From the NCBI GenBank assembly GCA_017347445.1, contig AP021856.1, forward strand, positions 2,550,613-2,614,612: a stretch of 64,000 bases of DNA. The letters are read 5' to 3'. Source of the DNA: Candidatus Brocadia pituitae (lineage in GTDB: Bacteria; Planctomycetota; Brocadiia; Brocadiales; Brocadiaceae). Made by a program: the position numbers and the translations under genes. This document shows, in pieces, positions 13,744-59,481 of this stretch; the first letter of the stretch is position 1; each line of letters opens with the position of its first letter. The notes under the pieces were generated by a model that worked only from the letters and a program-made list of their open reading frames with translations, had not been told where the DNA came from and searched no databases.

Positions 13744-13978
13744 ATCGCCGTCATGATCTAACGGGGTGGCACGGACAAGCATAGCTTGTCCGTGTTTTTG
13801 CAATACTGCTTGATGCCTTGTGCTTGCGTGGTCTGCCTGGCATTGTCTATCCAAATGTTAAAATGAATACTTCGTAAACGTAAACAATGTCGTGCAAGTC
13901 CAACACGGACAAACGGAGTTTGTCCGTGCCACCCTGTTGCCAATGTAAAATTCATCTTTTATGAACATCTTGAGTATA
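13744..13978. repeat. dispersed hairpin element, copy C1
   Basis: GGTGGCACGGACAAGCATAG near the left end is the partial inverse of CGGAGTTTGTCCGTGCCACC on the right. A ~220-base, diverged copy in the opposite orientation is at 53783-54015; both copies share the ends (CATCGCCGTCATGATCTAAC / its counterpart, and TGAACATCTTGAGT) and the middle (TTGTCTATCCAAAT). No ORF spans it. It behaves like a non-autonomous mobile repeat. Confidence 0.85.
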
Positions 13979-48300: not shown

Positions 48301-48373
48301 CACATTCAGTGAGGCGATGGATCCCACCACCATCAACAGTACCACTTTACGTAAACGGGGTAGCCGGTGGTGA
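45338..48373 (+). CDS. SBBP beta-propeller surface protein, paralogue 2 (5' intact part)
   Basis: ATG at 45338 with CGGAGG nine bases upstream; the open frame extends earlier but overlaps the previous gene. It is a close paralogue of 39994-43515: signal peptide (VILMLAVSLISPLLA), N-terminal domain (MPFIANAGQINGRVKYYVRT, VNYFKGNTPSRWKRNIPSYN), seven SBBP repeats, and two and a half Big_5 domains. Around 48343 and 48366 two deletions relative to its own repeats (ACCACTTTACGT for ACCACATTTACCGT, and loss of AG) shift the frame, and the protein stops in foreign residues (TTLRKRGSRW) at 48373. The missing C-terminal Big_5/LamG part lies downstream in pieces. Confidence 0.8.
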   Translation: MNKTRKVFTLPVILMLAVSLISPLLADQEGVSKTPKAEVIQKTQKLQMPFIANAGQINGRVKYYVRTFGGSVYVTKDGEIVYSLPKFEGKKESLPDPQPAIRNLKSDARGLVLKEEVIGGKVSKIRGEEKGIARVNYFKGNTPSRWKRNIPSYNIVNLGEVYKGVELKLKAYGNNVEKLFCVKPDTDPSSIKIKLSGARSLKVNEKGQLEVETELGPVKFTKPLAYQEIEGKRVDVAVEYQILKPEGRKKSLKSEIRNPNSEIENVYGFKVASYEKTKELIIDPLLASTYLGGAGSDYGYSMGIDPDGNVYVSGETVSTDFPATNTYGVSYDTGLGGDVDAFIAKFNGNLTTLLASTYFGGTGFDSVSSLVVGSGGNIYVTGGTQSSDFPVFNGVDTSHGGFNDAFVSKFNGQLTNLLASTYLGGSGNDHGYSLATDQSGNICVSGETGSSDFPTANINGTSYDTTRGGDIDAFITKLNGDLTGVLASTYLGGSDFDSSSSLSIDLDGNLFVSGGTGSSDFPILANPVPYKGAFAGSLDAFIAKLNGNLTTLLASTYLGGSGSDYAYSLIASAGNIYVSGEAGTGTTNFPTTPGAHDQILEGDMDAFVAKLSGDLTGLLASTYLGGAFWEYSSSIDIDSAGDVYVAGGTASDDFPTIPVAYDTTFNGTFGGGDIDTFVSKLNGELTNLLASTYLGGFNYDTLHDMARGADGNVYVIGETLSDNFPMTLNVYDNSFSYHEVFVSRFDSDLSADTTLPTVISTNPANNATGVAVASDLTATFSEAMALATINSTTFTVNGVAGVVSLSADGLTATFNPGVDLANSTLYTATITTGAKDLNNNAMATNFVWSFTTGAAPDITPPTVSATNPANNATGVAVASDLTATFSEAMAPATINSTTFTVNGVAGVVSLSADGLTATFNPGVDLANSTLYTATITTGAKDLNNNAMATNFVWSFTTGAAPDITPPTVSATNPANNATGVAVASDLTATFSEAMDPTTINSTTLRKRGSRW

Positions 48374-51281
48374 GTCTCTCAGCCGATGGTCTGACAGCAA
48401 CCTTCATTCCAGGCGTTGATCTGGCCAACTCCACCCTTTACACGGCAACGATTACGACAGGGGCGAAGGATTTGAACAACAATGCCATGGCCACCAATTT
48501 CGTCTGGAGCTTTACCACGGCTGCAACGGGGCCAATTAGTGGGCAGCAGGCATTCTACGCCTTCGATGAAGGAAGCGGGACGATTGCAAACGATTCATCC
48601 GGTAACGGCAATAATGGCAACATTATAGGGGCGACATGGACAACGGGGAAGAGTGGAGGCGGGTTAAGCTTTGATGGGAGATTATGTCAGCAGAACGACC
48701 CCTTCCGCAGGACTGAAACCTTCGCTGGAATTACAACGGCGGTATGGATCAGAACGAGCGCTACAGACACAGGGGAGCGGAGATAGTATCTATGGGAGAT
48801 AGCTATGCCATGCGGGTTCGAACAAATGGGAACATACAGTTCTTCTATTACACGGCACGGTGTGGAGAGGTATTATAACAACAGGTGTCAATGTACAGGA
48901 CGGTGTGTGGCACTATCGTTGGACAGAAGACCAGTACCGCTTTGCAAATATACGTGGACGGGTCTCCAGGGCAAGTACCCCAACTACGGGTACAATTGCC
49001 TATACGCTGGGAACGGGCTTATCTGTTCGGCAGGCATGGGAATGGTGAGACAATCTATGATTTTGTCGGCGCCATCGATGATGTCCGCATCTACAATCGA
49101 GCCTTGAGCGCCCAGGAGGTATCGAACCTGTATACTCCGGGACCAGATACGACACCGCCGACGGTAAGTTCAACGAATCCGGCGAATAATGCGACGGTGT
49201 GGCGGTTACCAGCCTTACGGCCACGTTCAGCGAGGCGATGGCTCCCGCCACGATCAAGTACCACATTTACCGTAAACGGGGTAGCCGGAGTGGTGAGTCT
49301 CTCAGCCGATGGTCTGACAGCAACCTTCAATCCAAACGTTGATCTGGCCAACTCCACCCTTTACACGGCAACGATTACGACAGGGGCGAAGGATGCGAAA
49401 CAATGCCATGGCCGCCAATTTCGTCTGGAGCTTTACCACGGCTGCAACGCAGGATACGACACCGCCGACGGTAAGTTCAACGAATCGGCGAATAATGCGA
49501 CCGGTGTGCGGGTTACCAGTAACCTTACGGCCACGTTCAGTGAGCGATGGACCCCACCACAATCACAGTACCACATTTACCGTAAACGGGGTAGCCGGAG
49601 TGGTGAGTCTCTCAGCCGATGGTCTGACGCAACCTTCAATCCAAACGTTGATCTGGCCAACTCCACCCTTTACCGCAACGATTACGGGCGAGGGGGAATG
49701 CGAACACAATGCAATGGCCGCCAATTTCGTCTGGAGCTTTACCACGGCTGCAACGGGGCCAATTAGTGGGCAGCAGGCATTCTACGCCTTCGATGAAGGA
49801 AGCGGGACGATGCAAACGATTCATCCGGTAACGGCAATAATGGCAACATTATAGGGGCGACATGGCAAACGGGGAAGAGTGGAGGCGGGTTAAGCTTTGA
49901 TGGGAATGATTATGTCAGCAGAACGACCCCTTCCGCAGGACTGAAACCTTCGCTGGAAGTTACAACGGCGGTATGGATCAGAACGCCTACAGACACAGGG
50001 GTACGGAGATATACTATGGGAGATAGCTTGCCATCGCGGTTCGAACAATGGGAATATACAGTTCTTCTATTACACGGCACGGAGAGGTATTAACACAGGT
50101 GTCAATGTACGGGACGGTGTGTGGCACCATATCGTTGGACAGAAGCTACCCGCTTGCAAATATACGTGGACGGGTCTCCAGGGCAAGTACCCAATACGGG
50201 TACAATTGCCTATACGCTGGGAACGGGCTTATCTATCGGCAGGCATGGGAATGGTGAGACAATCTATGATTTTGTCGCGCGCATCGTGTGTCCGCATCTA
50301 CAATCGAGCCTTGAGCGCCAGGAGGTATCGAACTGTATACTCCGGGACCAGATACGACACCGCCGACGGTAAGTTCAACGAATCCGGCGAATAATGCGAC
50401 CGGTGTGGCGGTTGCCAGCAACCTTACGGCCACGTTCAGTGAGGCGATGGATCCCATCACAATCAACAGTACCACATTTACCGTAAACGGGGTAGCCGGA
50501 GTGGTGAGTCTCTCAGCCGATGGTCTGACGGCAACCTTCAATCCAAACGTTGATCTGGCCAACTCCACCCTTTACACGGCAACGATTACGACAGGGGCGA
50601 AGGATGCGAACAACAATGCCATGGCGCCAATTTCGTCTGGAGCTTTACCACGGCTGCAACGGGGCCAATTAGTGGGCAGCAGGATTCTACGCCTTCGATG
50701 AAGGAAGCGGGACGATTGCAAACGATTCATCCGGTAACGGCAATAATGGCAACATTATAGGGGCGACATGGACAACGGGGAAGAGTGGAGGCGGGTTAAG
50801 CTTTGATGGGAATGATTATGTCAGCAGAACGACCCCTTCCGCAGGACTGAAACCTTCGCTGGAAGTTACAACGGCGGTATGGATCAGAACGAGCGCTACA
50901 GACACAGGGGGAGCGGAGATAGTATCTATGGGAGATAGCTATGCCATGCGGGTTCGAACAAATGGGAATATACAGTTCTTCTATTACACCGGCACGGTGT
51001 GGAGAGGTATTATAACAACAGGTGTCAATGTACGGGACGGTGTGTGGCACCATATCGTTGGACAGAAGAGCAGTACCGCCTTGCAAATATACGTGGACGG
51101 GGTCTCCAGGGCAAGTACCCCAACTACGGGTACAATTGCCTATACGCTGGGAACGGGCTTATCTGTCGGCAGGCATGGGAATGGTGAGACAATCTATGAT
51201 TTTGTCGGCGCCATCGATGATGTCCGCATCTACAATCGAGCCTTGAGCGCCCAGGAGGTATCGAACTTATATACACCTTAA
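48374..51281 (+). pseudogene. 3' continuation of SBBP paralogue 2: broken Big_5/LamG array
   Basis: This stretch repeats the end modules of the preceding genes: rest of a Big_5, LamG (48530-49130), two Big_5 (49140-49750), LamG (49750-50340), Big_5 (50350-50660) and a nearly intact LamG (50660-51281) ending in SAQEVSNLYTP and a stop. Compared with intact copies it carries dozens of one- to four-base changes in length, nearly all deletions, and few substitutions (examples: 48681 loses two bases, 48730 loses G, 49190 loses C, 49990-50060 several). Restoring them gives a single frame continuous with 45338, which would make a protein of roughly 1,980 residues. Real decay and consensus or assembly error in a tandem repeat are both possible; the pattern favours the latter. 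Confidence 0.75.
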
Positions 51282-51464: not shown

Positions 51465-53744
51465 ATGATGAAGTATCCGATCTTTTGTAACCACATGAGA
51501 ATGTTTCTTTTCGGGTTTCTTTTACTTGTTTGTTTACCCGGATGGACCATTGCACAGGTGCAAGATCAAACGCCACCTACCGTGACTTCCACTTCTCCCG
51601 CTAACGGGGAAAGTGATGTGACTACCAGCCGCTTCATTACGGCCATATTCAGTGAACCGATGGATTCTTCCACGATTACCGCAAACACGTTTACCGTGAA
51701 CGATATTAACAGTAATAGCCTTGAAGGCACGGTTTCTTACAATGACACAACAAACACAGCCATCTTTACGCCATCCGTTGTTATGGCCCTTGCCACTACG
51801 TACACGGCGACGATTACCACGGGTGCAAGAGATATCGCTGGCAATAATATGGCCTCTGACTATTCCTGGAGTTTTAGCACGATTGAACCCGATCCGCCAG
51901 ACCCCCTTGTTTCTCTGAAAACGGTGCCGGTACCTCTTCCTCCTAATCTTGATGAATTTGTAAAGGACAGAACCGCTGCTATCCAGTTGGGCAAGGCACT
52001 GTTCTGGGATATGCAGGTGGGGAGTGATGGCGTTCAGGCATGTGCCAGTTGCCACTTCCATGCCGGAGCGGATAACCGCGCTAAAAACCAATTGGCCCCG
52101 GGTTTCGATACTATCTTCGATGGGATTACGGGACCAAACTACACCCTGACGACCGTTGATTTCCCTCGGGCAAAAGTGAATAACGACATCACGGGATCTC
52201 AGGGTATATTCAATACTCGCTTTAACGGAATCCTCCTTTCCCAGGCAGAAGATGACGGTACCCTTCTGGGAGACACAATATTTAACGAGAATGGTGCCCA
52301 GACTCGCCGTGTAACGGGACGAAATTCTCCCAGTGCGATTAATGCTATTTTCAATTTCCGGAACTTCTGGGATGGACGAGCCAACAATGTCTTTAATGGG
52401 GTAGATCCATTTGGACCAAGGAATGCAAATGCTAAAATCCATGTGGTGGCGGGTCTGTTTAAATCAGGGGTTGGTCAGATTGTGAGAATGGTAAACGCAA
52501 GCGCTGCATCCCAGGCGGTAGGTCCACCAAATAATTCAACAGAAATGGCTTACGATGGACGAACATTTCCTGATATCGCCAGAAAATTGTTTCATCTCAC
52601 ACCATTAGGAAAACAAGCTGTGCATCAGGATGACAGCGTGTTGGGTAGCCTCGCTAATCCTGTGGGCACCGGACTTAATACGACGTATCAGAAAATGATT
52701 CTCAATGCCTTTCATCCAAAGTATTGGAGATCGGCCCGGTTGAAAAATGGATATACCTTAATGGAAAACAACTTCTCTCTCTTCTGGGGAATATCAATCA
52801 TGCTTTACGAATCTACCCTGGTCTCTGATGACAGCCCATTTGATAAATACATGGATGGCGACCTGAATGCCATGACTCAGCAGCAAAAGAATGGGATGGT
52901 GATCTTTCAAAACAAGGCCAGGTGTATTGGATGCCACGATGGAGCAGAGTTTACGAACGCCGCGGTTCCTAACGCATTAGAAGGCCAGCGAGAATTCTTT
53001 ATGGAACGAATGCTCACAGCTGATAGAACGCTGAGTCCAGCACTTTACGACATTGGCTTTTATAATGTCGGGGTAAGGCAAACCAATGAGGATCTGGGCG
53101 TGGGGGGAAATGACCCCTTTGGCAATCCGCTCAATTACTCACGACAGTACATAAAAATGTTGCTGGGCTTGCCTGTACCCGATCAATTTCAGATTAATCC
53201 TTGTTTTTTTGAGGCGCCATTCCTTCCGTTTGAGTTTCCGGGTGGCTTCAATGCCATTGATTGTGATGGAGATGGTTTCATCGATACGGGTTTACCCACC
53301 GATCCAAACGAGATACGGAATTTGAGGGTAGCTGTGGATGGCGCGTTTAAGGTCCCGTCACTTCGCAACGTGGAGCTTACTGGCCCCTATTTCCACAATG
53401 GCGGCCGGGCAACCTTGCGGCAGGTGGTTGAATTCTATGACGACGGTGCGGACTTTAGGAACGAGAACCTGGCCCTTATACCCCCTGATATTCTGCCCCG
53501 TCTTAACTTAACTGAACAGGAAATAGTGGATTTGGTGGCCTTTATGCTGGCATTGACTGACGACCGCGTTCGCTACCAGAGAGCGCCATTTGATCATCCA
53601 CAGTTATTTATCCCAAATGGACATCCTGAACCAGTTACAAGCGATGGCACCGGCAAGGCTACGGATGATTTGCTGGAGATACCAGGTGTGGGAAGAGACG
53701 GTGGGGCTGCGATTCAACCATTTTTAAATCTTTCACATTTTTAG
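51465..53744 (+). CDS. MauG/CcpA-type di-heme cytochrome c peroxidase with N-terminal Big_5 domain
   Basis: 759 residues from the ATG at 51465 (GGAG six bases upstream). Signal peptide MFLFGFLLLVCLPGWTIAQ, then one Ig-like Big_5 domain (PPTVTSTSPANGESDVTTSR, residues about 30-140) of the type found in the SBBP proteins next door. The peroxidase/MauG module follows with two c-type heme sites: ACASCHFHAG near 192 and RCIGCHDGAEF near 486. VPSLRNVELTGPYFHNGG is the conserved region of the C-terminal heme domain. Such enzymes reduce H2O2 or perform oxidative protein modification in the periplasm or at the surface. The region around 570-620 is an insertion. Placed just before two multicopper oxidases. 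Confidence 0.92.
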   Translation: MMKYPIFCNHMRMFLFGFLLLVCLPGWTIAQVQDQTPPTVTSTSPANGESDVTTSRFITAIFSEPMDSSTITANTFTVNDINSNSLEGTVSYNDTTNTAIFTPSVVMALATTYTATITTGARDIAGNNMASDYSWSFSTIEPDPPDPLVSLKTVPVPLPPNLDEFVKDRTAAIQLGKALFWDMQVGSDGVQACASCHFHAGADNRAKNQLAPGFDTIFDGITGPNYTLTTVDFPRAKVNNDITGSQGIFNTRFNGILLSQAEDDGTLLGDTIFNENGAQTRRVTGRNSPSAINAIFNFRNFWDGRANNVFNGVDPFGPRNANAKIHVVAGLFKSGVGQIVRMVNASAASQAVGPPNNSTEMAYDGRTFPDIARKLFHLTPLGKQAVHQDDSVLGSLANPVGTGLNTTYQKMILNAFHPKYWRSARLKNGYTLMENNFSLFWGISIMLYESTLVSDDSPFDKYMDGDLNAMTQQQKNGMVIFQNKARCIGCHDGAEFTNAAVPNALEGQREFFMERMLTADRTLSPALYDIGFYNVGVRQTNEDLGVGGNDPFGNPLNYSRQYIKMLLGLPVPDQFQINPCFFEAPFLPFEFPGGFNAIDCDGDGFIDTGLPTDPNEIRNLRVAVDGAFKVPSLRNVELTGPYFHNGGRATLRQVVEFYDDGADFRNENLALIPPDILPRLNLTEQEIVDLVAFMLALTDDRVRYQRAPFDHPQLFIPNGHPEPVTSDGTGKATDDLLEIPGVGRDGGAAIQPFLNLSHF

Positions 53745-54113
53745 GGCAGAAGAGGTGGAATATCCGTTCTTATAGAACAGAATTACACTCAAGATGTTCA
53801 TAAAAGGTGAATTTTAAATTGGCAACAGGGTGGCACGGACAAACTTCCGTTTGTCCGTGTTGGACGTACGCGACGTTGTTTATGAAGTATTCGTTTTCAT
53901 ATTTGGATAGACAATACAAGGCAGGCCACACAAGCACAAGGCATGAAGTAGTATTGCAAAAACACGGACAAGCATAGCTTGTCCGTGCCACCCTGTCAGA
54001 TTATGGCGGCAATGTTAAAGATACTGTTAATCTGCCTAAAAATATGAAAATTGCTGTACCAATTTGTGAAAAATATATTCTATCAATCTAATCCACAAAA
54101 GAAGGAGGATGTT
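53745..54113. other. intergenic region filled by hairpin element C2
   Basis: About 370 bases between the MauG-type gene and the first multicopper oxidase gene. Nearly all of it is the dispersed element at 53783-54015. The last 100 bases carry the ribosome-binding site AAGGAGG of the oxidase gene. Confidence 0.6.
53783..54015. repeat. dispersed hairpin element, copy C2 (inverted relative to C1)
   Basis: Begins ACTCAAGATGTTCATAAAAG, includes GGTGGCACGGACAAACTTCC and CAAGCATAGCTTGTCCGTGC, and ends with CAGATTATGGCGGCAATG. Read in reverse complement it aligns along its length with 13744-13978. The two ends are inverted repeats of each other (GGTGGCACGGACAA / TTGTCCGTGCCACC). Confidence 0.85.
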
Positions 54114-55316
54114 ATGAAAGGAATAGACAGGCGCGAATTTATGAAAACAGGTGCGCGCAATCTGGCCGCCGTAGCACTGGGCTCTGCCATCGGCATACCT
54201 CAGATATTCAGGCAGACCGAGGTTCTGGCCGCTAATCAATCTTTAACATTGGAGATAACGGAAGTATTACATCAGATGGTGGACAAGACGCTAGTCTATA
54301 GTTGGGCATTCATAAATCCATCTTTGGGACCTCAACCTACTATCCCTGGACCGGTTATCTATGCCATTGAAGGCGATCAGATAACTATTACCGTCAGAAA
54401 CAGGCATAATAAGGCTGGTGCAATTCATGCCTTCGCCATTACCGGTACAGTACCAGGAACTTACTTAGCAAACACACAAACAGGTCCCATTGCTCCAAAC
54501 CGTGAAGTTACGATAACTTTTACAGCGCCGCCAGCCGGTACCTACATGTATCTTGATCCTACCAACGATCCGGTAAGCCGGGTATTGGGATTGCATGGCA
54601 TGATGATCATTCGGCCGGCAACGTCAACAGGGGCGGCAGTAACCCCCTATGGGCCGTCCAATATTACCCCCAATGTTCAGGCCCTGTTTGATGACCTGGG
54701 AAATACTACTCATTTCCCTGGCCTTCCCTGGGATCCAGCGAGGGAACATATTTGGATACTGAGTCAGATCGACCCTACCTTTAATAAACTGGCGCAGGAT
54801 AATGAACCCATCAACCCCAGTGACATGGTGAATAATTTCCTGCCACGTTATTATACGATGAATGGCCGATCAGGATACTTCTCTGCTCATGACCCTGATA
54901 TTCAGTTAATAGGCAGGGCGGGAGAGCCAAGGCTGATACGCTGTATGAATGTTGGTCTGGCTGTCCATTCTAATCATGTCCACGCTAATCACGCTTACAG
55001 GATTTCATATGATGGAGTTGTCCAGAATAACGTGTGGTGGGTTGATACATGGACTACAAGAGGCGGGGATATATACGATATCCTCTATCCCATGGTAATG
55101 CCGCCTGATATCCCCCTGGATACCTGGAATAAATTAAAGAACGGGACTTCACAGGAAGGATTTGATGACAATCCCATGCACGGAACAAACAAGGGCTTTC
55201 CTATGTGGTATCCTATGCACTGCCATCTGGAGATGTCCCAGACCGCGGCCGGAGGCAATTACCCCCAGGGAATGGTGACGCATATTGTATTTACTGGTGC
55301 GGTACCGGGAGTTTAG
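54114..55316 (+). CDS. Tat-exported multicopper oxidase
   Basis: 400 residues from the ATG at 54114 (AAGGAGG upstream). The Tat signal is DRREFMKTGARNLAAVALGS. Cupredoxin domain 1 has IYAIEGDQITITVRNRHNK and AGTYMYLDPTNDPVSRVLGL; the C-terminal domain has VHSNHVHANHAYRI and PMWYPMHCHLEMSQTAAGGN, with the copper-binding HCH near 368. The usual HCHxxxHxxxM order is not seen after HCH (SQTAAGG follows), so the type 1 site differs from laccase. These proteins oxidise metal ions or phenolics or reduce small nitrogen compounds; substrate unknown. It stands between the MauG-type enzyme and a second multicopper oxidase, suggesting a joint periplasmic redox process. Confidence 0.88.
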   Translation: MKGIDRREFMKTGARNLAAVALGSAIGIPQIFRQTEVLAANQSLTLEITEVLHQMVDKTLVYSWAFINPSLGPQPTIPGPVIYAIEGDQITITVRNRHNKAGAIHAFAITGTVPGTYLANTQTGPIAPNREVTITFTAPPAGTYMYLDPTNDPVSRVLGLHGMMIIRPATSTGAAVTPYGPSNITPNVQALFDDLGNTTHFPGLPWDPAREHIWILSQIDPTFNKLAQDNEPINPSDMVNNFLPRYYTMNGRSGYFSAHDPDIQLIGRAGEPRLIRCMNVGLAVHSNHVHANHAYRISYDGVVQNNVWWVDTWTTRGGDIYDILYPMVMPPDIPLDTWNKLKNGTSQEGFDDNPMHGTNKGFPMWYPMHCHLEMSQTAAGGNYPQGMVTHIVFTGAVPGV

Positions 55317-55518
55317 TCTAAGTGAAGTGAACAAAGTTGTCATTCCGGGCTTAAGGCGTGTTTAATCTTGCAGATTGAACTACAAGTTTTAACTTGGACG
55401 ATAGAGTTTAACTTGTGCTATGAGATTTGAACATACGAACGGACTAACTTTGTTTGTCCGTGACTAACGTGAGAACGTATCGAAATGTATAGAAAAGATA
55501 AATAGGGAGGAAAGGATA

Positions 55519-56655
55519 ATGGCTAATAAATTAAGAATAGTACCACGAGATCCACACCGATTAGTCGACGAACCAGATTTCCAGATGATGTTCGAGGGAT
55601 TTGCTTGTAACGTCCCCAAAGGGAGCCCTGCAACCCCCGATATATTAACACCGGATATTTTCGTTAGACGAGCATTTGAACAATTCGATCTTCTCATGCC
55701 GGATGGGAACATAGTCGAATTCTGGGGCTTTGTCGATCCTCTGGGCCCTAACGCTTTCCTTGGCGCCTTTCCATCGGATATGATTCGTATAAGAGAAGGG
55801 CAACTCTTCCACGGCAGGCTGGAAGATCTTCAAAAAGGTACGCATACCATTCACTGGCATGGCATGGAGCCTACGCCGATGAACGATGGGGTGGGGAAAC
55901 TTTCCTTTGAAGTCAATGGTCAATATACCTATCAGTGGTATGCCAGCGCTGCGGGTACCTATTTCTACCACTGCCATCACAATACCGTCCTGCATTTCGA
56001 ACTGGGCATGTACGGGATGCTCATCATCGATCCTCCTAAACCAGATGGAGCGCCGGGGCCGAATCCGCCGTACCCAACAGGGGGGCCTGGATTTATACGA
56101 AGGACAAATGATATCATCCCTTACGACAAGGAGGCCATTTGGGTCACTGACGACGTGGATCCTCTGTGGCACATGCATGGACACGACGCCGGCTTTTGCG
56201 AAGTAGGCCAGTCTTTTGGGCCGGATGTGGGGTTGAATAATTTTAATCCTGTGTACTTCCTGATTACGGGTGTGCCGTCTCCCTGGTGCGCAAATCTGCC
56301 CACAGATCCCACCCATCCCGGCGTGGCTGTGACTGTAGGAGTGGGGCAGACACTTCTCGTCCGTCTTCTCTGCGCGGGTTACACGGTGCACCGATATACC
56401 ATTGAAGATCTGGATGCGGAGGTCATTGCCATGGACGGTCGGGTGATGGGAGACTCATCTTTTAACCAATACTCTCAACCTTTTATACTACCTGCAAATC
56501 AGCCCTTTGAGCTTACAGCAGCGAGGCGCTTTGATTTGATCATCAGTCCCACTGCAAGTGATATTGGTTCACATAGAGTGTTGGTGGATGTCTTTGATGC
56601 CGATAAAAAAGACAAAAAGCTGGGAACGATGGAAACCTTCATTCATGTTGTTTAG
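55519..56655 (+). CDS. second multicopper oxidase (HWHG/HCHH type), no obvious signal peptide
   Basis: 378 residues. First domain: THTIHWHGMEPTPMNDG (HWHG near 111) and GTYFYHCHHNTVLHFELGMY, giving a C-x6-H-x4-M type 1 copper arrangement next to the type 2/3 His set. Second domain: DPLWHMHGHDAGFCEVGQSF and HRYTIEDLDAEVIAMDGRVM. The C-terminus RVLVDVFDADKKDKKLGTME is a normal cupredoxin edge. No hydrophobic leader follows the ATG, so it either works inside, is exported with the Tat-type partner encoded 200 bases upstream, or is read from an unrecognised start. GGGAGG precedes the ATG. Confidence 0.87.
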   Translation: MANKLRIVPRDPHRLVDEPDFQMMFEGFACNVPKGSPATPDILTPDIFVRRAFEQFDLLMPDGNIVEFWGFVDPLGPNAFLGAFPSDMIRIREGQLFHGRLEDLQKGTHTIHWHGMEPTPMNDGVGKLSFEVNGQYTYQWYASAAGTYFYHCHHNTVLHFELGMYGMLIIDPPKPDGAPGPNPPYPTGGPGFIRRTNDIIPYDKEAIWVTDDVDPLWHMHGHDAGFCEVGQSFGPDVGLNNFNPVYFLITGVPSPWCANLPTDPTHPGVAVTVGVGQTLLVRLLCAGYTVHRYTIEDLDAEVIAMDGRVMGDSSFNQYSQPFILPANQPFELTAARRFDLIISPTASDIGSHRVLVDVFDADKKDKKLGTMETFIHVV

Positions 56656-56664
56656 TACTACTAA

Positions 56665-57621
56665 ATGAGAGAAATAGTTATGCAAAACCATTTTAAAATT
56701 GTCGTTTGTTTTATGTTTGTACTATGGATGATGTGTATAAACGCAAGTGTGGTACATGCAAATTCTAGTGGCCCTCCCTTTGGTCGTACAGGCTCTCCAG
56801 CCGATGGTTTCAAAACGTGCAAAGATACAGACTGTCATAATACCTATCCGCTGAATGCGGGGGCGGCAACGTTTTCGATTTCTACACCTGGCAGGTATAC
56901 CCTGGGTGAGGTTTTAACCGTGACCGTTTCTTTTAAAAATTCTCATGCCTCTAAACACGGCTTTGAACTTTCGGCACTCGATGCAAACAACAACCATGCT
57001 GGCATATTCAGTAGTTTTTCAGGCGATAATAAAACCCAAACCAGTACTGATGGGAATTATATCGAGCACACCTTCAAGGGGTGCAATCAATCTGGAAATG
57101 CTCGTTGGAAAGTAAAATGGACTGCACCCTCTTCTGAAGTACAGGATCCGGTGACCTTCTATGCAGCCGGGAATGAGGCAGACGGGGATCACAAACACGG
57201 GCATGAACATGGTGTATATCCTAAACATGGCGGTGATACACATGACGGTGATTATATTTATACAGCCATTGCTCAGATAAGCAGAACTTCAATTACACCA
57301 ACTCCAACGCCGGTGGGTTGTGAAACAACGGCAATATCGGCGTCTGCGAACGATCTTACCCTCAAAAAGGGAGAGGAAGGTGAAGTGATTATAACCTTGA
57401 TATTACCTGAAGGTTGTAGTCCGAAAGAAGGAGAGACGATAACAGCAAAGATTAATAAGGTTGATAAGAATCGCATGTCGGTGTCGCCACAAAGCACACA
57501 TACCGACGGCAACGGTCAGGCCAGGTTTACCGTTACAGCAAAGCAGAAAACCGGAAAGGCGAGGGTCAAATTCAGATACGAAGATTTTAAAACGACGGTA
57601 AAAGCCAATGTAATAGAATGA
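56665..57621 (+). CDS. exported protein with CX4CH heme-type motif and Reeler-like domain
   Basis: 318 residues. Signal peptide IVVCFMFVLWMMCINASVVH is followed by GPPFGRTGSPADGFKTC and KDTDCHNTYPLNAG: a C-x4-C-H motif near residue 51 in the context typical of 'choice-of-anchor V' or Reeler-domain proteins, which often carry a heme-binding CXXCH there. Residues about 60-210 form the Reeler-like beta domain (STPGRYTLGEVLTVTVSF, His-rich HKHGHEHGVYPKHGGDTHDG). The C-terminal 100 residues are an Ig-like invasin-type domain (LTLKKGEEGEVIITLILPEG). It is nine bases downstream of the second multicopper oxidase gene. A metal- or heme-binding surface role is inferred. Start could be the later ATG at 56680. 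Confidence 0.75.
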   Translation: MREIVMQNHFKIVVCFMFVLWMMCINASVVHANSSGPPFGRTGSPADGFKTCKDTDCHNTYPLNAGAATFSISTPGRYTLGEVLTVTVSFKNSHASKHGFELSALDANNNHAGIFSSFSGDNKTQTSTDGNYIEHTFKGCNQSGNARWKVKWTAPSSEVQDPVTFYAAGNEADGDHKHGHEHGVYPKHGGDTHDGDYIYTAIAQISRTSITPTPTPVGCETTAISASANDLTLKKGEEGEVIITLILPEGCSPKEGETITAKINKVDKNRMSVSPQSTHTDGNGQARFTVTAKQKTGKARVKFRYEDFKTTVKANVIE

Positions 57622-57736: not shown

Positions 57737-58330
57737 ATGAAAAAGATTTTTAGAAACGTGACGAAAATAAAATTCATTGTTTCAATTATGTCCATACTAG
57801 TCCTGACTATTTCGATAGCTTCTCTTTATGCTCATAATGATAAAAGGAGAGGCGATGGTGAATTACGAGTATTTACTGCCCTGTTGACTGGTGGACAGGA
57901 AGTTCCTGAAAATGACAGCAATGCCTTTGGGGTTGCATTTTTGACCTTCAACGAAAAAACAGAAGAACTCTGCTATTCAATAACCTTCACTGATGAAAAA
58001 CTGGTTGGGACAGAGACCGCAGCACACTTCCATGCCCCCGCAGTGCCTGGTGAGAATGCACCGGTTGTATTTACGATAACACCAGATGTCAGTCCTCTTG
58101 GCAGTCCAAAAAATGGATGCGTTGGACCGCTCAGTAATGATCAGAGAAAACAATTAAGAAAGGGGTTGTTTTACATCAATATTCACAGCGAGGCCTTCTC
58201 TGGAGGGGAGATCAGAGGCCAGGTCATACCGGAAAAAGTACATTTCGAAATCGATGATGAGGACGACGACGATAATAATGGTGATGACAATGGTCATGGT
58301 GATGACGACGGTGATCGCGGCCATCGCTAG
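57737..58330 (+). CDS. CHRD-domain protein with acidic C-terminal tail
   Basis: 197 residues. A hydrophobic N-terminus (IVSIMSILVLTISIASLYAH) is followed by one CHRD domain at about 45-165: LLTGGQEVPENDSNAFGVAF, ETAAHFHAPAVPGENAPVVF, GLFYINIHSEAFSGGEIRGQ. These features are typical of bacterial CHRD proteins, often found near copper proteins. The last 35 residues are nearly all Asp, Asn, Gly and His, so they may bind metal. The stop codon TAG is formed at the left end of an IS630-type insertion; without the insertion the same position would read TAA, so the protein is unchanged. Confidence 0.88.
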   Translation: MKKIFRNVTKIKFIVSIMSILVLTISIASLYAHNDKRRGDGELRVFTALLTGGQEVPENDSNAFGVAFLTFNEKTEELCYSITFTDEKLVGTETAAHFHAPAVPGENAPVVFTITPDVSPLGSPKNGCVGPLSNDQRKQLRKGLFYINIHSEAFSGGEIRGQVIPEKVHFEIDDEDDDDNNGDDNGHGDDDGDRGHR

Positions 58331-59481
58331 TGTGGTGTCCCGTAAATAACTAGACATATCATACTTCCCTTTTTTGGCGCCGGGGCTGCGTGCAACCAGA
58401 CTGGATGGTCTCCAGTTTGGCCCGAGCCCGAGCCCGCTCGATCTTACGGAGGATATCCTCCAACTTGGCCGTCCAGACAAACGGCTGCGGGTTGGCATTC
58501 CAGGCGGCGAGAAAGGTTTCGATGGCCTGCACCAATTCTGGAACGCTGACAAAAGCACCGCGCCGGCTCGCTTTCTCTGTTAACTCCCCAAACCACCGCC
58601 CCACCAGGTTCAGCCAACTCGAACTGGTGGGAATGAAGTGGGGCACAAACCGCCGATGGGTTCTCAGCCAGGCTTGCACCTGCGGTGTCTTGTGCGTGCC
58701 GTAATTGTCCAGCACCAGATGCAGTTGCTGCTCCCCAGGAAACTCCCGGTCCAACCGCCGCAGGAATTTCAGAAACTCTTGATGGCGGTGTCTGGCTTGG
58801 CACTGTCCGATCACTTTGCCGTCCAACAAACTTAAAGTGGCAAATAGCGTAGTCGTGCCGTGGCGCTTGTAGTCGTGGGTTATCGTGCCACACCGACCCT
58901 TCTTCAACGGCAGTCCTGGCTGTGTCCAATCCAACGCCTGAATCTGGCTCTTCTCATCGACACACAGTACCAGTGCCTTCTGCGGCGGATTCAGATACAA
59001 ACCCACCACGTCGGTCAGCTTCTCCACAAACTTCGAATCCCGCGACAGCTTGAAGGTTCGGCTGAGATGCGGCTTGAGATTATGCAATTGCCAGAGCCGG
59101 TTGACCGTGTTCTTGCTCACGCCTTGGGCCTTGGCCATCAGTCGGCAACTCCAGTGGGTCATTCCCTTGGGCTTGGTCTGCAAGGTGGCGGCAATCAGCG
59201 CATCGCGCTGGGACAGGTCATACTGCGGTTTACGACCCCGACCGGCTTTTGTCTCCCAGACCGCGTCGATCCCGGCTTCCAGGACTCGCCCCCGCCGCAG
59301 CGGCCAAGACCAACCGACACCGCGACGCGACCTGCTGCGGCGTGCCGTGAGCCGACTGCCACTACTGCAGCCGCATTTGATCCGCAGCCGACAATTCCAC
59401 TGAGGGACTGGTTCTCGCCATGCCACAAATCATAGCATCTTTTCTCCAAATATGTCTAGCTATTTACGGGACACTGCGCTA
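58328..59481 (-). mobile_element. IS630-family insertion sequence, defective
   Basis: Terminal inverted repeats: left TAGTGTGGTGTCCCGTAAAT and right, in reverse, TAGCGCAGTGTCCCGTAAAT, both continuing into a CTAGACATA block. A TA dinucleotide flanks each end (58328-58329 and 59480-59481), the target duplication of IS630/Tc1 elements. The left TA is inside the CHRD stop codon. The single transposase gene inside is damaged. Confidence 0.85.
58359..59421 (-). pseudogene. IS630-family transposase with stop codon, deletion and frameshift
   Basis: Starting at the ATG 59421 the frame reads MARTSPSVELSAADQMRLQ, then an amber TAG, then continues as HGTPQQVASRCRLVLAAAAG. About 25 residues covering the recognition helix-turn-helix are then missing and the frame changes to LEAGIDAVWETKAGRGRKPQ. 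From there to 58359 the catalytic DDE domain is complete: VLCVDEKSQIQALDWTQPGL (first Asp), HLVLDNYGTHKTPQVQAWL (second Asp) and TSSSWLNLVGRWFGELTEKA (Glu). A GTG-started frame opens the whole gene but gives a nonsense N-terminus. The protein probably cannot bind its ends, so the copy would depend on another transposase. Confidence 0.85.

Follow-up and report, generated by a model that had tools for sequence, protein, structure and literature searches.

A Predicted Heteromeric Multicopper Oxidase Encoded by Two Adjacent Genes Next to a Diheme MauG-Like Enzyme in Candidatus Brocadia pituitae

The stretch of DNA analyzed in this study consists of 64,000 nucleotides of Candidatus Brocadia pituitae (contig AP021856.1, positions 2,550,613 to 2,614,612 of the forward strand) and is referred to as the window; all coordinates given for the locus are positions within it. 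It contains two adjacent genes of cupredoxin-domain proteins, MCO1 and MCO2, whose products are very probably the two subunits of a single heteromeric multicopper oxidase, with the active site at their interface and with export by means of the twin-arginine translocation (Tat) signal of MCO1. The division of the oxidase over two proteins is well supported by sequence and by the pairing of the genes, and a partnership of this split oxidase with the diheme MauG-like enzyme encoded upstream of it is likely. The genome (labeled G000, other genomes and loci being labeled with G- and L-numbers) is a single contig of 4.08 Mb, and three of its hydrazine synthase gamma genes scored over the family cut-off, so that the host is an anammox bacterium.

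A previous reading made from the letters alone (the sequence-only reading) had proposed an extracytoplasmic redox locus of five consecutive genes, encoding a MauG-type enzyme with an Ig-like (immunoglobulin-like) domain, two multicopper oxidases, a CX4CH/Reeler protein and a CHRD protein. The extracytoplasmic redox character was supported by our analysis, and all five genes were found to be consecutive and on the + strand. Their Pfam scores exceed the Pfam cut-offs, which excludes a chance match for all five. The range that had been given, 51465-57621, holds for the MauG, MCO1, MCO2 and Reeler genes, while the CHRD gene lies beyond 57621.

Copper Ligands of MCO1 and MCO2

The trinuclear cluster of multicopper oxidases is held by eight histidines from four HxH motifs and, to our knowledge, one gene supplies every copper ligand in the known enzymes. 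Ligands were counted in the two-gene loci, with some partial sequences included and two one-frame loci set aside, and residues of MCO1 were numbered from 54051. The alignment used (A4) misplaces about 40 residues per MCO2 row; an alternative (A5), in which the MCO1 rows fell on the MCO2 half, was dropped.

The four motifs were found to be divided between the two proteins. Domain 1 of MCO1 had no HxH motif in 82 of 83 sequences and its domain 2 had two or more, likewise in 82 of 83, while domain 1 of MCO2 had two or more in 73 of 75 and its domain 2 had none in 69 of 75, the MCO2 of the window being among the six exceptions. Six single-gene oxidases used as control had at least two HxH motifs in either half each, according to a crude half-count. 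The trinuclear histidines of MCO1 were H309 (83/83), H311 (82/83), H390 and H392 (both 81/81), and those of MCO2 were H112 (74/75), H114 (75/75), H151 and H153 (both 74/74). In addition, MCO2 has type-1 ligands in domain 1, namely H109 (75/75), C152 and H159 (both 74/74), together with position 164, which is M in 54 and L in 20 of 74 sequences. Domain 1 of MCO1 is without type-1 ligands, and the position of the second type-1 histidine of this protein is never His (S in 76, T in 5 and A in 1 of 82). Domain 2 of the window MCO2 has neither HxH nor HCH at the equivalent positions and reads VHRYT at that of the domain-2 motif. On this reading, neither chain would have a full ligand set and both together would have one. 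The sequence-only reading of two multicopper oxidases must be amended in this regard, each protein having only half of the trinuclear ligands.

We propose that the trinuclear cluster would be formed at the interface between domain 2 of MCO1 (H309, H311, H390, and H392) and domain 1 of MCO2 (H112, H114, H151, and H153), with the only complete type-1 site in domain 1 of MCO2 (H109, C152, H159, and M164). Outside the membrane, the type-1 site would accept single electrons from the substrate and the shared cluster would reduce O2 to water.

Gene Pairing and Fusions

When genomes were scanned with an MCO1 alignment, 150 relatives were obtained; the 80 best of them, found by MCO1 alone, and four plasmid loci make up a set of 84. 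On plasmids, tblastn showed that MCO1 adjoins MCO2 in Indioceanicola (two copies) and Arthrobacter. The start of MCO2 was located at most 700 nt downstream of MCO1, on the same strand, in 71 of the 72 loci that leave 1.2 kb after MCO1, the two fused ones included. Among the 12 loci that leave less, MCO2 was partly present at the contig end in five and missing by that test in seven, although one of these seven (L101) gave a weak MCO2 match of 49 bits. When 19 genomes were searched for both proteins (G078 was omitted from one of the searches behind this figure), 34 of 34 MCO1 and 34 of 34 MCO2 loci paired one to one within 2.5 kb.

Both proteins are encoded in a single frame in L044 (782 amino acids) and in L115, and the MCO1 frame of L034 continues into MCO2-like sequence and then breaks. 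Carriers of the pair span eight phylum names, according to the titles given by the submitters. Skermanella aerolata has at least seven MCO1 loci (L055, L059, L068, L069, L071, L073, and L098), one of which is cut off by a contig end.

Structure Models and Related Oxidases

The fused chain of L044 was modeled with a predicted local distance difference test score (pLDDT) of 82.4 and a predicted template modeling score of 0.85. The best match of its MCO2 half was the N. europaea oxidase 3g5w, with Z 23.6, root-mean-square deviation (rmsd) 2.3 and 258 aligned residues, rows within 1 being taken as tied. The whole chain could be aligned to ceruloplasmin along its length (Z 21.9, rmsd 3.8, 504 aligned). 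The top Foldseek match was MnxG, but this is a loose whole-chain alignment (rmsd 11.9) and the manganese oxidase reading that it would suggest was rejected. MnxG and ceruloplasmin have consecutive cupredoxin domains in one chain, which can be aligned with the four-domain L044, but they differ in having six domains in one polypeptide.

The type C two-domain oxidase (3g5w) likewise has two cupredoxin domains per chain, Pfam Cu-oxidase domains being present in MCO1 and MCO2. It has type-1 copper in the N-terminal domain, as MCO2 has, and a trinuclear site between domains of two chains, as would be the case here. Two-domain oxidases are described as trimers, the trinuclear site being formed where domain 1 of a chain meets domain 2 of its neighbor (PMC13151041). 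All chains of the type C oxidase are one gene product with both trinuclear halves, whereas here the halves are on different gene products. In the order of L044 the half sites are on the neighboring domains 2 and 3, and this junction is of the same kind as the inter-chain site of the homotrimers. The pair would likely have originated by duplication of a homotrimeric type C two-domain oxidase and subsequent complementary loss of copper ligands.

Export

Of 82 MCO1 N-termini, 79 have twin arginines and 81 a hydrophobic stretch. The signal of the window MCO1 begins MKGIDRREFMK and was assigned to the Tat type by motif and hydrophobicity only. A hydrophobic stretch was found in 5 of 75 MCO2 sequences, four of them apparently upstream of the probable start, and RRx[FL] in 7 of 75 upstream stretches, most of these being taken for codons 5′ of the gene; the MCO2 of L065 has a signal-like stretch beyond the 75 upstream residues counted. 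Given that MCO1 has a Tat signal and MCO2 has none, we infer that the folded pair would be exported together on the signal of MCO1. Tat hitchhiker complexes, in which signal-less subunits are co-translocated with a signal-bearing partner, have been described (PMC4273604; PMC10924467). MCO2 resembles the signal-less partner of PaoABC-type hitchhikers, with the differences that the cofactor here is copper and that export here is predicted by analogy.

A SCO1/SenC-type gene was located 1.7-2.5 kb past the MCO1 start in 16 of the 84 loci, all of them alphaproteobacterial (one representative was Pfam-tested), and families of type II secretins and GspE-type ATPases were found at 10 and 9 of the 84 loci, respectively (representatives tested).

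The Diheme MauG-Like Enzyme

The MauG-like enzyme has two CxxCH motifs, a CCP_MauG domain and a PYFHNG motif, features which it has in common with MbnH, MauG and the bacterial diheme cytochrome c peroxidases. Both of the nearest named NCBIfam families scored far under cut-off, MbnH with 121.2 of 362.85 bits (the best) and MauG with 91.1 of 443.85. Besides these scores, the subfamily differs from MauG and MbnH in its catalytic part of about 620 residues and in an APFDHP motif of its own, C-terminal and invariant in an alignment of 18 sequences. The axial ligand of the low-spin heme is Tyr or Met in the MauG and MbnH families. The structure model of the diheme part was poor (pLDDT 44.7) and was not used. 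A rubber oxygenase of the RoxA/RoxB type was rejected, as the window motif is PYFHNGGRA and not PYFHNGSVP, the form given for RoxA in PMC6311187, and RoxA was absent among 30 PDB profile matches. RoxA-like matches in L126 and L129 were weak and under cut-off.

Linkage to the oxidase genes was studied in 50 of the 80 loci, a hand-chosen and not random sample which includes genomes where MauG had already been seen at the locus. MauG of the subfamily (E ≤ 1e-40) was present in 20 of these 50 MCO1-carrier genomes, and 10 of these 20 (nine genomes and G078) have it on one contig with MCO1 at a distance of at most 10 kb. By chance, fewer than one linked genome would be expected, a rough estimate from about 1.6 MauG and 1.8 MCO1 loci per 3.6 Mb in a sample that was not random.

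The gene order is MCO1-MCO2-Big_5 protein-MauG in L124, CHRD/cadherin-like protein-MCO1-MCO2-MauG in L043, and MCO1-MCO2-MauG in a row in L036. Apparently secreted Ig-like neighbors are found in L124 (Big_5), L122 (four Big_5), L043 (CHRD and cadherin-like) and L036 (Big_9 and cadherin-like). With respect to four large MauG proteins tested, Pfam revealed Ig-like domains in L123 and L126, Glucodextran_B in L129, and nothing beyond the enzyme in L122. The clustering of MauG with cupredoxin genes that the sequence-only reading had pointed out is consequently not confined to the window, since it recurs elsewhere and in some cases (L124, L043) with apparently secreted Ig-like proteins; the Ig-like domain of the window enzyme was also confirmed, as Big_5, and such domains are carried by members of the subfamily in other bacteria too. 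The diheme enzyme, presumably tethered by its Big_5 domain, would act in the same place as the oxidase by peroxide or high-valent heme chemistry.

An N-terminal stretch of approximately GYPxWYQDxTGLxLxLC is common to apparently secreted proteins encoded beside MauG or MCO genes (Table 1), two of which are without any Pfam match.

The second MauG of G000 is without Big_5 and follows, in a same-strand row, a three-domain Tat-type oxidase, CusB (with a YHS domain) and CusA (L131:7910-17730). A DDE_3 gene (L131:6833-7906) adjoins it. On a plasmid of Comamonadaceae, genes for another oxidase, SCO and MauG follow one another. The MauG subfamily accompanies copper oxidases or copper handling in several settings, and surface-type proteins in some.

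Distribution in the Lineage

Relatives of MCO1 and MCO2 (E ≤ 1e-10) were found in none of the 58 order relatives, G000 being the only carrier among 59 order genomes. The catalytic part of MauG (E ≤ 1e-20) was likewise restricted to G000, with two genes, among the 59, the matches of other genomes being essentially to Big_5. In a phylum sample of 392 genomes, the 391 besides G000 likewise gave no MCO1 match (E ≤ 1e-15). Among the 59 order-level genomes, 34 have Reeler relatives and 13 have CHRD relatives, both figures including G000; the triplet accompanies them in G000 alone. CHRD relatives occur in the same family of genomes. Since the triplet is found only in G000 while Reeler and CHRD are common in the order, MauG-MCO1-MCO2 is probably a foreign triplet beside native genes. 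Scattering of the genes in relatives was the check that the sequence-only reading had itself put forward; with Reeler and CHRD widespread and the triplet in G000 alone, a single conserved system of five genes was rejected.

The third-position guanine plus cytosine (GC) content was 0.48-0.50 in the triplet, 0.39-0.41 in four neighboring genes and 0.60 in the transposase gene beside CHRD. In a tree of 80 MCO1 rows, for which five rows judged to be short or irregular were set aside (L080, L083, L091, L093, and L098), the window sequence grouped with that of L036, a deltaproteobacterial groundwater metagenome-assembled genome (100/94), and then with a planctomycete one (100/97).

Possible Roles and Alternative Readings

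With respect to function, the oxidase and the diheme peroxidase may well act on small diffusible substrates, such as Mn(II), Fe(II), Cu(I) or phenols, or remove extracytoplasmic O2 and peroxide in a protective manner. This would agree with the row in G000 in which a three-domain oxidase, CusB and CusA are joined by the second MauG gene, with the SCO1/SenC-type genes near MCO1, with the genes of Nramp metal transporters that two actinobacterial plasmids have in the vicinity of MCO1, and with the anammox host, O2 being a stress for anammox bacteria. It must be noted, however, that no substrate site could be made out and that the loose MnxG match is not evidence of Mn oxidation.

It is rather unlikely, although conceivable, that the role of the MauG-like enzyme is the oxidative maturation of a partner protein, either the copper oxidase or surface proteins of the Ig-like type, in the manner in which MauG matures methylamine dehydrogenase and MbnH matures MbnP. 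MbnH is the best NCBIfam match, albeit under its cut-off; in L124, L122, L036 and L043 the genes of MauG and of the split oxidase flank or adjoin that of an apparently secreted Ig-like protein; and the MauG proteins of the window, L123 and L126 carry Ig-like domains themselves. Against this, members of the subfamily also accompany CusBA and another oxidase in G000, and likewise SCO and another oxidase on the Comamonadaceae plasmid, where no Ig-like protein was annotated or present among the proteins scanned, which covered part of the hypothetical proteins. Oxidation of metals or small molecules, or protection against oxygen or copper, seems likelier than modification of surface proteins. We are doubtful that an unrecognized class of heteromeric oxidases, an Ig-tethered diheme enzyme and secreted Ig-like proteins constitute an extracellular system which modifies or cross-links the surface matrix of its own cell.

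Several results weigh against the split oxidase and its partnership with MauG. MCO1 retains part of a type-1 site (H306 in 66 of 83 and C391 in 58 of 81 sequences), and the window MCO2 scores two HxH motifs per half in the crude count by way of HMHGH at 218-222. We discount this motif as the missing half, because it lies before the domain-2 position and is unaccompanied by HCH. L035 has MCO1 without MCO2, being the sole exception among the 72 loci; the one-frame cases, L044 and L115, rest on one draft genome each; and the distance correlation between MCO1 and MCO2, 0.77, is a figure without control. Concerning MauG, 10 of the 20 genomes holding both have none within 10 kb of MCO1, 30 of the 50 MCO1 genomes are without it at E ≤ 1e-40, and the MauG-MCO1 gap of the window measures 370 bp and contains an element resembling a miniature inverted-repeat transposable element (MITE), which leaves a shared transcript with MauG in question.

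That MCO1 and MCO2 are two independent multicopper oxidases, each active alone, is highly improbable, for although Pfam recognizes cupredoxin domains in each, the HMHGH motif is present and L035 has MCO1 by itself, MCO1 is without a complete type-1 site and without the domain-1 trinuclear half (82 of 83), MCO2 is without the domain-2 half (69 of 75), and the genes are rarely apart.

Organization of the Locus

The annotation of the locus is provided in Table 1. MCO1 most probably starts with the ATG at 54114, which is preceded by the ribosome site AGAAGGAGG, and the Reeler frame starts 9 bp past the end of MCO2. Directly before MauG, a Big_5/LamG-like surface-protein sequence (48367-51281) is split into several short frames, the breaks being due either to decay of the gene or to assembly indels. 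A scan of the locus for promoters and terminators gave fewer sites than the mean of shuffled sequences.

The C-terminal domain of the Reeler protein is common to the anammox S-layer protein Kustd1514, as it matches positions 1485-1592 of the 1596-position model with 71.4 bits, against a cut-off of 1400 that applies to the full-length protein. Heme-like motifs of odd spacing were observed in these Reeler/choice-of-anchor V proteins, CX4CH in the window and CX3CH (CRDGCH) in a paralogue (L132:6584-7474). A second MITE-like copy is located at 13760-13938, the inverted ends of the two related elements being of 21 and 37 bp.

Table 1. Features of the locus in the window, and proteins with the common N-terminal stretch at other loci
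Feature	Position	Strand	Evidence or remark
Diheme MauG/CCP-like enzyme, N-terminal Big_5	51465..53744	+	Pfam Big_5 79.5 bits, CCP_MauG 76.2 bits
Big_5 domain of MauG-like enzyme	51564-51881	+	Pfam, over cut-off
Heme motifs of MauG-like enzyme	CASCH 52041-52055; CIGCH 52923-52937	+	Coordinates checked
MITE-like element, MauG-MCO1 gap	53825..53996	.	21-bp inverted ends
MCO1	54114..55316	+	Pfam Cu-oxidase_3 38.7 bits; Tat-type signal
MCO1 domain 2 motifs	HSNHVHANH 54966-54992; HCH 55218-55226	+	Putative half of trinuclear site
MCO2	55519..56655	+	Pfam Cu-oxidase_3 45.3 bits, Cu-oxidase_2 33.8 bits; no signal peptide seen
MCO2 domain 1 motifs	HTIHWHG 55843-55863; HCHHNTVLHFELGM 55969-56010	+	Putative type-1 copper and other trinuclear half
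CX4CH/Reeler (choice-of-anchor V) protein	56665..57621	+	Pfam Reeler 38.4 bits; motif CKDTDCH
CHRD-domain protein	57737..58330	+	Pfam CHRD 97.1 bits
DDE_3 transposase gene	58359-59426	-	Pfam; GC 0.59 vs. 0.44 for window
GYPxWYQDxTGLxLxLC-type proteins	L043:16378-18210; L092:4488-6185; L122:1-2121; L124:5988-8300; L125:7370-8899; L130:1-2008		

Significance

No split or heteromeric multicopper oxidase was found among the literature matches listed, which is weak evidence of absence given that most subscription papers lie outside that search. Several further bacterial phyla also have the MCO1-MCO2 pair, at times with a gene for a related heme enzyme in the vicinity, and the split oxidase ties copper oxidases to a large subfamily of diheme enzymes. 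If the proposed heteromer is true, some genes annotated as "multicopper oxidase domain-containing" or "hypothetical" would have been misread as separate enzymes, and an oxygen-reducing cluster divided over two proteins would constitute a natural experiment in the passage from homomeric to heteromeric active sites.

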